DNA from: a virus | Reading direction: 5' to 3' (one strand) | Length of the DNA stretch: 22,787 nucleotides | IMG/VR virus record: IMGVR_UViG_3300009130_000145 | Span: 1-22,787 of that record | In this document: positions 2,248 through 5,357 of the stretch, piece by piece | Layout of the letters: each line of letters starts with the position of its first letter | How positions within the stretch are numbered: position 1 is the first letter of the stretch | The notes under the pieces: generated by a model | Database searches by the model: none | What the model saw: the letters and a program-made list of their open reading frames with translations, nothing else | What the model was told of the DNA's origin: nothing | Made by a program: the position numbers and the translations under genes

Positions 2248-3327
2248 ATGCGCTGGGCAATCGGCCTGATAGCCTTGTTGGTTATCGGTGCCACAGCAAC
2301 CACGGACTTGGTTGCAGACTTCAAAAGTAGTTTTCTAGTTGATGGAAGGAAGCACTCCACACTATCGTACCTATCTGATGACAGGGATGATAGTTGGAGA
2401 AGTACAGTAAGAACTTTAATATTGGCAAACGGTGACACACACGCTGACATCTTTGCCAGAAATACGGACAAACCTTGGGGGATGGTAGACGGTGTTGGGG
2501 ATAATTGGAATGAGCGTCTTAACGGGCTGCGTAATAGCGGTATTAGTCCGGTCATTTGGTTGAGATCAGATGATTCACCTGAACTTGATGCTTTACCGAT
2601 ATCAGATACACTGGATTATAATGATCGTGTCGTTCAAAAAGTGGATTCACAAGTATCTCACTATGTGGCGTGCTTGGAGTGTGACGAATACTACTCTGTA
2701 CCGGAACTTAACGTGGTTATTCAACGACTACGTAAAGCAACGGATAAACCGATTGGGGTACACCTTACGCCGGGAATGCGGGGTAAGGAAGCCTATATCA
2801 AGAATGCTGATGTCATCTACCTTCAGACGGGATTTGGAAAATCTGAACAGGAGTTTAGGGCCGAAATTGAGTACGCTCTCACGCTTGGTAAACCTGTTGT
2901 CGTGTCTGAGTATCACATGGATTCGGATAGTCCAGAGGCTAAAGCGCTGGGTGATATAGCCTGTAGTTATTCCGGTGTAGTAGGAACAGGCAATGGCAGA
3001 GGTTCAGCCGTATGTGGTAGTCTTGTGACCAAGGTAGAGAAAGAGGAGTGGCATGAGGAGTATGATGATGAACTGGCGGTCTTTATGCTTGCGCTAGTGT
3101 TCCTGTCCGCATCATACGGATTGAAGATGAACCTACCCTTTGAGGCTAAATTTAATTACATACAGGACGACAAGTATGAAGTAATGCTTGCTGCACCGAT
3201 AAATGAAACCACTACGGTGGGATCAACAGTAAGGGATGATGGAAGAATTATGATGTTTATCAACAAGACGTTTGGTAAAATAAGATGGGGACAACCCGCA
3301 AATAAGGAGAAAACGTATGAACGGTAA
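2248..3327 (+). CDS. Signal-anchored TIM-barrel glycoside hydrolase-like protein
   Basis: This 359-residue protein begins with a short hydrophobic segment (residues 3-18, WAIGLIALLVIGATAT), which fits a signal peptide or signal anchor. Residues about 52-250 look like a (beta/alpha)8 barrel. Successive hydrophobic strands end in polar residues: RTLILANGD, PVIWLRSDD, YVACLECDEYY, KPIGVHLTPG, DVIYLQTGFG, KPVVVSEYH and SGVVGTGNG. Glu144 or Glu147 on one strand and Glu221 on a later strand sit where clan GH-A enzymes place acid/base and nucleophile. A C-terminal domain (about 280-345) looks beta-rich. It could degrade peptidoglycan or a surface polysaccharide. The next gene starts inside its 3' end. 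I do not recognise a named family, so the fold call is by strand pattern. Confidence 0.6.
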   Translation: MRWAIGLIALLVIGATATTDLVADFKSSFLVDGRKHSTLSYLSDDRDDSWRSTVRTLILANGDTHADIFARNTDKPWGMVDGVGDNWNERLNGLRNSGISPVIWLRSDDSPELDALPISDTLDYNDRVVQKVDSQVSHYVACLECDEYYSVPELNVVIQRLRKATDKPIGVHLTPGMRGKEAYIKNADVIYLQTGFGKSEQEFRAEIEYALTLGKPVVVSEYHMDSDSPEAKALGDIACSYSGVVGTGNGRGSAVCGSLVTKVEKEEWHEEYDDELAVFMLALVFLSASYGLKMNLPFEAKFNYIQDDKYEVMLAAPINETTTVGSTVRDDGRIMMFINKTFGKIRWGQPANKEKTYER

Positions 3328-3400
3328 AGATTGGATACATTCAGCAGTAACAGCAGTGATGGTGGTTGTATTAATGCACGTAGTGTCTTGGATCATATGA
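3317..3400 (+). CDS. 27-residue single-span membrane peptide
   Basis: The ATG at 3317 has a strong ribosome-binding site, AAGGAGA (3304-3310), 6 nt upstream, inside the end of the glycosidase-like gene, which it overlaps by 11 nt. The product has a polar start (MNGKDWIHS) followed by 18 mostly hydrophobic residues ending WII, a typical single membrane helix. Lying between a putative cell-wall hydrolase and a small membrane protein, it may be a lysis component (pinholin-like or regulator). No family is recognised. The quality of the ribosome-binding site is the main argument that it is real. Confidence 0.6.
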   Translation: MNGKDWIHSAVTAVMVVVLMHVVSWII

Positions 3401-3427
3401 CAGAGGGAGAGGAGATACCGTATTATT

Positions 3428-3649
3428 ATGGCGCTTAAACATCTTGAACACGTTGGATATTGGAAGCACTTATGGTGCGCCCTTGGATGGGCGTACCTTT
3501 TGTGCGTTGCTGGGGTCCTTGGCTTCATACACGCAGTGTTCCCATTCATGTTTAAAGACAGCATGACTACGATAGTATCAAAAGTCAAAGCAAGTATGGG
3601 CGCTGAGAAAAGAAAGAAACGCACAAGGGCTAGAAAGAGTGGCAGGTAG
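3428..3649 (+). CDS. DUF6356-like small membrane protein
   Basis: The 73-residue product starts LKHLEHVGYWKHLWCALGW and runs through a hydrophobic stretch ending FIHAVFPFMF. The early His, the Tyr-x-x-His and the His-Ala-x-x-Pro-x-x-Phe motif match the pattern I know for DUF6356, a short family found in phages and bacteria and sometimes labelled capsule-biosynthesis. One membrane span is likely (about residues 15-42). The last 20 residues are strongly basic (EKRKKRTRARKSGR). Size, single span and basic tail resemble a holin, and the position next to the glycosidase-like gene supports a lysis role. Family function is not established. AGGAG at 3410-3414 is 13 nt upstream, rather far. Confidence 0.7.
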   Translation: MALKHLEHVGYWKHLWCALGWAYLLCVAGVLGFIHAVFPFMFKDSMTTIVSKVKASMGAEKRKKRTRARKSGR

Positions 3650-5357
3650 AAAGCCACCCATCCCTGAGGGCTGGGTATACGATAGCCCATGGGATGATGT
3701 TGTTATTGAGGGAGATGGTCAGGTCAGTGATCTCCCTATAATTCCCGGTGTAGTAAAGGGAGTCAACGACTTCTCCAACTACCTGATGGACCAAGGCTCA
3801 TGGACTAATCCTCTCACGTGGCCGGGCGTACTTGCTGGCGCACTGGGTGAAGGGATTACCGACGCACCTAACAAGTTCCTCCAAGGTGAGGATGTTAACA
3901 TGGCTGATGCCACGTTATTCGGGATGGAGTTTATCCCCGGTGTTGGCTTTGTTAAGAAAGGGGTACAGAGGGTAGCGGGACACCTTGCCCTGCCTCAAGA
4001 TATTACAAGGCGTAATCATGCACATCAGGCTAAAGAGGCTGTTAGACCTTGGTATGCCACCAAGAAAAGACCTGACGGTAAAAGTAAAAATCCTGTAGTA
4101 AGAAAAGTTCAGAGTGCATTAGATTCTAAACCGGTAAATAGGGCTGTCCACCTTGGTCATATGGCGAACCAAGGTTTGGTGAAGCAGCCATTCAGAAGGC
4201 TGTGGGATACAGAGGCAGACGCACTCTATCGTAAGCACAAAATCTCTGATAGCCAGAAGAAAGAATTTGAAAGGGCATTTGATTACATGGACTCCGGTGG
4301 TACACGCCAGAGAGCAAATCAGAATGAGATTATATCTAACGCACAGTACATAGAATCTATTCTGCAGAAATACTTCCCTAATAATACAGCATTCGCTGAC
4401 GACTTCAAGAAAGTTCTATTCCCCAAAACAGTGCAGACTCATGGTTCATCAATGATGGAATCCGCACTCCCTGTTCGCAAGGTACTTGATACAGGGTTTG
4501 CATCTAATGAAGATGTTCTAACTCATATCTCAAGACCAATAGTAGGCGCACTAGGCTTGCAGGGAAAGAAGGTGGTCCTGAACTCCAAGCACTGGCTAGA
4601 ACCCAATCAGATGGACAGGATCAAGAGATCAGTTGGGAGAAGTCCTAGTAATGATATGCTTAATATCATAGATGAAATGCCACGTGATGTCCCGCTTACT
4701 TGGGAGAATCTACATGCACAAATACTTAAACACAATAACAGGATATCCACAGATTTGGTTGCATTGGAAAAGAAGATCATGGACAGTATGCCAAGAAAAA
4801 AGAATGGCGAACTGAGAAAAGATTGGGAAGGCTCATTCTCAAACAAACTTGAAGAGGCAAGAGTTTCTTATCAATCAAAGTTTGGTGGTGGAAATAGGTA
4901 TATACGCATTGATGATGTCATGAAAGATATGCAGGAGACTGATAGGTTTATTTCATTTGGCGGAAGATCATTGGGTGAGGATAGACTATTAGGAAACTAC
5001 AATCACAGACTTATAGTAGATAAGCATAGTGGTGAGATATCTATTCTCAAGTATGATGAGATGCGTCAGGGGTCTCACTCAGCAACGTTGGATGCCGTCT
5101 TAAACGCAAGCACTCCTGAAACCGTGGCTATAGATATCATCCCATTTACACGTAATGCTACAGGTGGATACAAGCAAGGGAACTCAGTTGCTAAAGTCAT
5201 GACACAGGCAGAGCAGGCACAGGAAGTACGTAAAGGAATGGAACAAATGATGGGTTACGAATCCACACTTGGCGACCGTGCAAAGACGGCTGCCAAGATG
5301 GGTGGCGTACTCACAGCAGGAGGGCATTTAGGTGGCTACATCACAGAAGAAGACTGA
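3639..5357 (+). CDS. Large cysteine-free protein of unknown function, 572 aa
   Basis: A GTG start at 3639 overlaps the previous stop by 11 nt, with AAGGG at 3625-3629 upstream. The protein contains no cysteine. Near the N-terminus are Gly/Ala-rich hydrophobic segments (residues 61-75, WPGVLAGALGEGIT; 95-107, GMEFIPGVGFVKK), and another lies at the C-terminus (about 551-568). The middle is long, polar and largely helical with many Lys/Arg/Asp. Length, absence of cysteine and amphipathic Gly-rich segments are compatible with an internal virion or DNA-ejection protein. However, these usually sit near tail genes, not before TerS. No motif names it. Its end overlaps the TerS start by 26 nt. Confidence 0.75.
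   Translation: MAGRKPPIPEGWVYDSPWDDVVIEGDGQVSDLPIIPGVVKGVNDFSNYLMDQGSWTNPLTWPGVLAGALGEGITDAPNKFLQGEDVNMADATLFGMEFIPGVGFVKKGVQRVAGHLALPQDITRRNHAHQAKEAVRPWYATKKRPDGKSKNPVVRKVQSALDSKPVNRAVHLGHMANQGLVKQPFRRLWDTEADALYRKHKISDSQKKEFERAFDYMDSGGTRQRANQNEIISNAQYIESILQKYFPNNTAFADDFKKVLFPKTVQTHGSSMMESALPVRKVLDTGFASNEDVLTHISRPIVGALGLQGKKVVLNSKHWLEPNQMDRIKRSVGRSPSNDMLNIIDEMPRDVPLTWENLHAQILKHNNRISTDLVALEKKIMDSMPRKKNGELRKDWEGSFSNKLEEARVSYQSKFGGGNRYIRIDDVMKDMQETDRFISFGGRSLGEDRLLGNYNHRLIVDKHSGEISILKYDEMRQGSHSATLDAVLNASTPETVAIDIIPFTRNATGGYKQGNSVAKVMTQAEQAQEVRKGMEQMMGYESTLGDRAKTAAKMGGVLTAGGHLGGYITEED
5318..5324 (+). promoter_or_regulatory. Ribosome-binding site that fixes the TerS start
   Basis: AGGAGGG lies 7 nt before the GTG at 5332, inside the coding end of the preceding gene. 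It is nearly a full anti-16S match and supports the GTG start although the two genes overlap by 26 nt. Confidence 0.7.

Follow-up and report, generated by a model that had tools for sequence, protein, structure and literature searches.

We identify F3, a predicted exported barrel protein resembling the clan GH-A glycosidases, as the best candidate for the host-opening enzyme of a large uncultured group of ocean phages. The F3 gene (positions 2248–3327, + strand; 359 residues) lies in a 22.8-kb phage fragment, the IMG/VR virus record IMGVR_UViG_3300009130_000145 (positions 1–22,787), called the window below. The reading that we prefer, with about even confidence, is that F3 is an exported GH-A-like glycosidase that acts in envelope lysis and replaces a canonical endolysin, its activity and substrate being predictions.

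The window and the F3 family

The window carries head and tail genes of podovirus type, assigned with PHROGs: those for the terminase, the portal, the scaffold and the major head protein. The portal protein shares 37.5% identity with its counterpart in Pelagibacter phage HTVC106P. F3 and two small genes that follow it sit upstream of the terminase gene. A perfect-looking 20-pair hairpin (TTAGATTAAATTAAATCCCC...GGGGATTTAATTTAATCTAA; positions 390–437), possibly a bidirectional terminator, separates the AT-rich left end from the run of genes. The left non-coding region also encodes a tiny hydrophobic peptide (MTKFIGYSIGIAIWMFTLWGFLIR; 461–534) with an AGGAG ribosome-binding site, the second such peptide in the window. 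Positions 1300–1845 encode a 181-residue protein rich in Pro, Gly and Met, in which motifs like AVMPxP and PGxMPE recur and which matches no family. A neighbouring 572-residue protein (3639–5357) has one match only in IMG/VR.

Relatives of F3 are encoded on at least 108 marine viral stretches in IMG/VR, which makes the gene real and more than a chance reading frame. The best 80 of 108 relatives were fetched, and gene neighbours were counted in 75 loci. A search of 50,697 phage records gave no match to F3, and thus no relative in a cultured phage. Against Pfam, the window protein was without a match at E 1 and single family members matched weakly (E 0.09 or worse); the GH5 profile PF00150 was not found in the window. 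The best PHROGs match (E 0.34) is meaningless, and a search of PDB sequences yielded no relative, the best hit (E 0.14) being a ribosomal protein. The C-terminal part of F3 was considered as a domain common to other phage proteins and rejected, as it matched nothing outside the F3 family.

Glu144, Glu147 and Glu221, the paired glutamates to which the first-pass annotation had drawn attention, are invariant in all three alignments that we made (28 close homologues; 11 members including distant ones; 13 members including two chromosomal ones), as is Leu143. The 28 close homologues also keep D108, D109, H138, D146, H172 and four cysteines. Most of the conserved residues persist in phage homologues that are 35–38% identical and in the two chromosomal homologues at 34%, and the cluster formed by E144/D146/E147, D108, H172 and E221 is invariant even in the 13-member set.

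The chromosomal homologues (L191:7845-9023 and L190:15-1193) come from two marine gammaproteobacterial MAGs, the only two of 284 related genomes to encode one. The L191 gene directly follows a tRNA-Ala gene. Both homologues are arranged tail-to-tail with a methyltransferase-PAAR-Sel1 gene set, and a ClpV-like gene occurs further on in L191. Membership in a type VI secretion cluster was rejected, since the L191 gene lies tail-to-tail with the PAAR/ClpV set and not inside it.

F3 is predicted to be an exported GH-A-like barrel

The leader of F3 (residues 1–23; 2248–2316, + strand) is a hydrophobic stretch closed by an Ala-Asp junction at residues 23/24, the expected position of a signal peptidase I site. 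The Ala-Asp site is conserved, and the -3/-1 rule is satisfied in 44 of 45 distinct F3 leaders. The leader therefore looks like a cleavable signal peptide, with predicted cleavage between A23 and D24, and not like the signal anchor described in the first-pass annotation. An oxidising compartment would fit the four invariant cysteines. A second hydrophobic helix, at about residues 275–292 (3070–3123, + strand), has a hydropathy of 1.2–1.9 in 11 homologues and is helical in both structural models (see below); it is a possible membrane or envelope anchor. F3 would thus resemble SAR and signal-peptide endolysins as a Sec-exported enzyme, as opposed to one released through a holin, but it differs from them in fold, and its leader appears cleavable and not a retained SAR helix.

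An AlphaFold2 model of F3 shows a (β/α)8 barrel whose core spans residues ~40–250, with block-mean pLDDT mostly between 80 and 96. Comparison of this model with the PDB by VIA-align placed clan GH-A on top (GH5, GH2, GH113, GH140 and related families; best Z 18.5, 2.9 Å over 224 residues), and Foldseek placed clan GH-A glycosidases high in its list with other barrels mixed in. A second AlphaFold2 model, of a relative 38% identical to F3, again matched clan GH-A best by VIA-align (Z 18.9), with other barrel families also mixed into the plain Foldseek list; in this model the barrel is followed by a helix and then by a C-terminal sheet of four strands. The structural matches of the F3 models also include PslG, an exopolysaccharide hydrolase from Pseudomonas. 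The first-pass annotation had proposed a TIM barrel and suggested comparing the predicted structure with GH-A enzymes; both models agree with the proposal, neither of them being a fold without a barrel.

In the F3 model, the two predicted catalytic carboxylates follow the fourth and seventh barrel strands, which corresponds to the clan GH-A arrangement. Glu144 (codon 2677–2679, + strand; motif CLECDEY), the putative acid/base, comes after strand 138–140 at the end of β4, and Glu147 (2686–2688, + strand) belongs to the same motif. Glu221 (2908–2910, + strand; motif GKPVVVSEY), the putative nucleophile, comes after strand 217–220 at the end of β7. In an hhalign comparison of F3 with GH5, the sole pairing, a weak one (P 0.023), sets GKPVVVSEY on the I-x-V-T-E-W motif of GH5, the comparison overall being not significant (probability 2%). 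An Asn directly before the acid/base is a common hallmark of clan GH-A, present in most families though not universal; F3 has Leu143 in this position.

F3 is therefore like the clan GH-A glycosidases (GH5/GH113 β-mannanases, GH2, GH35, GH140 and GH164) in its predicted barrel, its β4/β7 carboxylates and the best structural matches of both models. It is unlike them in being only ~10% identical in sequence and matching no Pfam family, in the Leu-for-Asn difference, in its C-terminal hydrophobic helix and small β sheet, and in being phage-encoded and linked to genes for envelope proteins.

F3 is linked to a module of envelope-protein genes in related phages

Across the 75 loci, the gene directly upstream of F3 encodes the virion protein F7 in 40, F8 in 25 and F78 in 4; in the remaining 6, F3 is the first gene on its contig. 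Where F8 is directly upstream, the two genes mostly overlap, by 4–11 bases. F3 itself overlaps a following F22 gene by 4 bases in 4 loci, and in 29 it is within three genes of F22, F35, F46 or F8. The direct placement of F8 before F3 amounts to linkage of the endolysin type, with partners that are putatively holin- or spanin-like.

F8 is an outer-membrane lipoprotein by its lipobox cysteine; its middle is rich in glycine, and a membrane helix lies at its C terminus. An alignment of 13 members has an invariant Gly-Cys and a conserved helix, GGWxL..PM..GW..P. F8 has 343 relatives and no match among the 50,697 phage records. A weak match to F8 is TraT-like, TraT being a surface-exclusion lipoprotein. 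In topology, F8 resembles the unimolecular spanin gp11 of phage T1 (PMC6139136), which likewise joins a lipobox cysteine to a membrane helix at the C terminus, but the middle of gp11 is β-rich where that of F8 is glycine-rich. We regard F8 as putatively u-spanin-like.

The genes around F8 form variable sets that draw on F22 (secreted), F35, c9, c11 and c42 (each with one membrane helix and a predicted coiled coil), F46 (DUF6356) and c7 (HesB-like). The c7 family recurs beside DUF6356 and F8 in related phages, with 21 copies in F8 loci. Only F3, F46 and a c7-type gene of this module are present in the window; F8, the lipoprotein gene most often coupled to F3, is missing from it. The right end of the window stops soon after F7, a tail/virion gene, so the other parts of the module may lie beyond the ends of the fragment. 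The c7-type gene (family f56/c7; 981–1295, + strand) encodes a small relative of the A-type Fe-S carriers (HesB/IscA-like), matching PF01521 at E 7e-4 (below the curated cut-off), phrog_17776 at 1e-9 and the c7 profile at 1e-20.

The two small genes downstream of F3

The first-pass annotation had drawn a lysis cassette consisting of the barrel enzyme and two small membrane proteins. Both small reading frames are present. The first (3317–3400, + strand) overlaps the end of F3 by 11 bases, has a good ribosome-binding site (AAGGAG) and encodes a 27-residue hydrophobic peptide, MNGKDWIHSAVTAVMVVVLMHVVSWII. The second (3428–3649, + strand) encodes a 73-residue protein with one membrane helix and a basic tail; it is a true member of DUF6356 (PF19883; E 6e-12, 46 bits against a cut-off of 24.4). 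A close search with this protein found no relatives in IMG/VR, and none were found among the 50,697 phage records, but the family profile does find it in relatives of the window phage, where it recurs in the module as F46.

The linkage of the enzyme gene to envelope-protein genes thus extends to relatives, while the 27-residue peptide does not: none of 95 F3 copies in relatives is followed by a comparable in-frame peptide, other hydrophobic reading frames there lying over the next gene, and a role as a conserved holin was rejected. We know of no lysis role for DUF6356, which accompanies the module but gives no evidence of lysis. The three-gene cassette as first drawn is too narrow.

The endolysin families searched for were not found in F3 phages

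Searches of the window with PHROGs (over its whole length) and Pfam (over its first ten genes) revealed no gene for a lysozyme, amidase or transglycosylase, in agreement with what had been claimed for it. The search for a standard endolysin was extended to relatives. A six-frame search of 11 larger F3 records (25–49 kb) detected no Peptidase_M15_3, SLT, Phage_lysozyme or Amidase_2; applied to HTVC106P, this M15 search did recover the gene. Two of the relatives, G002 (38.3 kb) and G005 (39.7 kb), are near complete, since the ends of G002 prove adjacent when set against gene order in G001 and G005 has a 112-bp terminal repeat. An all-Pfam scan of 53 proteins of G002 and 51 of G005, most of the proteins of these phages, detected no endolysin-type families. 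The complete standard lysis cassette that would speak against the proposal did not turn up in these searches.

A transglycosylase domain hidden in the internal virion proteins of the F3 contigs was considered and rejected. In G002, the member of F41, which is large and resembles internal virion proteins, aligns with phrog_342 at profile positions 295–407 only, and the SLT search was empty in the 11 records; phrog_342 is an internal virion protein with an endolysin domain that we take to be outside these positions. One contig with the F8 module and no F3 (G018) is partial and was not counted as an exception. Among other genes of these relatives, G002 encodes a Mom-like DNA modification protein (L085:14132-14854; phrog_1384, 3e-52), and both G002 and G005 encode a ribonucleotide reductase (PF02867), the G005 copy with the insertion domain of the B12-dependent class II enzymes.

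F3 and the M15 peptidase exclude one another in the loci examined

The lysis gene of HTVC010P-type pelagiphages is stated to be an M15 peptidase (PMC10504331). In HTVC106P the M15 peptidase is gp31; next to it lies gp30, a relative of c20, and near it are gp39, a relative of c11, and gp37, a relative of c36. In 80 M15 loci, c11 occurs in 31, c20 in 17 and c36 in 14, and F3, F8, F46 and F22 in none. Conversely, the M15 profile matched no protein of the F3/F8 loci, and F3 was not found in 25 larger M15 records with a query that does match elsewhere. Because the two kinds of loci share module genes and the enzymes were not found together, two alternative enzyme sets occupy modules with some genes in common. 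The HTVC106P-type M15 endolysin is like F3 in being encoded in a module with c11, c36 and c20 relatives and in its presumed lysis role; it has a peptidase fold in place of the glycosidase fold predicted for F3, and its sequence is without an apparent signal peptide. F3 may have replaced the M15 enzyme, or the reverse. Common descent of two clades could give the same mutual exclusion, which would then reflect phylogeny rather than replacement.

Discussion

We propose that F3 would be made late in infection and exported through Sec, its signal peptide then being removed. In the periplasm, the barrel with its Glu144/Glu221 pair would cut an envelope glycan of the host, and this cleavage would be the chief degradative event in lysis; F3 would here stand in for the M15 peptidase endolysin of related pelagiphages. 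Its partners would be small envelope proteins encoded in the module: in relatives, the u-spanin-like lipoprotein, DUF6356 and holin- or spanin-like coiled-coil proteins with a membrane anchor. Computation gives the fold, the export signal, the invariant carboxylates, the linkage, the lack of hits to the endolysin families tried and the mutual exclusion with the M15 enzyme; catalysis by F3, the late timing, peptidoglycan as the glycan and the roles of the partners are what we infer. More narrowly, F3 might cleave peptidoglycan itself, as a true glycosidase of this polymer, and be the only endolysin that a large group of marine phages has. This claim is a tentative one, which we doubt more than we believe; to our knowledge, no clan GH-A enzyme cuts peptidoglycan. 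Other points also weigh against a lysis enzyme. In more than half of the loci (40 of 75), F3 directly follows the virion gene F7, outside the envelope-protein module; with nothing to time its action, an exported enzyme might lyse the host too early; the true endolysin may come from a family foreign to Pfam and PHROGs; and the sequence has Leu143 where most GH-A families have Asn, with a GH5 profile comparison that falls short of significance overall.

F3 could instead be an active exported GH-A glycosidase acting on capsule, exopolysaccharide or a periplasmic glucan and affecting progeny escape or superinfection, with the true endolysin an unrecognised protein. We consider this unlikely, though it is the most serious of the alternatives. 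The closest solved structures are β-mannanases and other polysaccharide glycosidases, with PslG also listed, two homologues are encoded by chromosomes of marine bacteria, and many phage genes are without an assigned role. Against this, F3 is present in every larger record of the F3 group that was examined, is exported and not built on a tail fibre, is coupled directly to the spanin-like gene in a third of the loci (25 of 75), and is accompanied by no endolysin candidate in the 11 larger records.

The frequent position after F7, often with F20 or F21 and the tail/ejection genes of F30 coming next, would also suit a part in the virion or in DNA entry, with F3 as a glycosidase of the tail that acts at infection. 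A signal peptide with so well kept a cleavage site would, however, send F3 out of the cytoplasm, where virions assemble, and the gene changes settings, including one beside the lipoprotein gene and away from structural genes; we regard a virion role as improbable. Least probable of all, in our estimate, is a catalytically dead or regulatory barrel, such as a binding protein or a superinfection-exclusion factor. The Leu143 substitution and the TraT-like match of F8 are consistent with it, but the E144/D146/E147, D108, H172 and E221 cluster is invariant even in the chromosomal homologues, as expected of an active site. We retain F3 as a glycosidase of envelope lysis as the preferred reading.

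Few phage enzymes have been surveyed as thoroughly as endolysins, nearly all of which come from a short list of folds. We know of no endolysin or other cell-wall hydrolase of a GH-A-like fold class. A large ocean phage group in which the usual families were not found, and which conserves one exported GH-A-like barrel instead, offers a clear, testable case of a new lysis enzyme. If the proposal is true, F3 would represent a previously unseen type of lysis enzyme and a new catalytic scaffold for opening Gram-negative cells, and it would explain the apparently missing lysis gene in the annotation of such phages.
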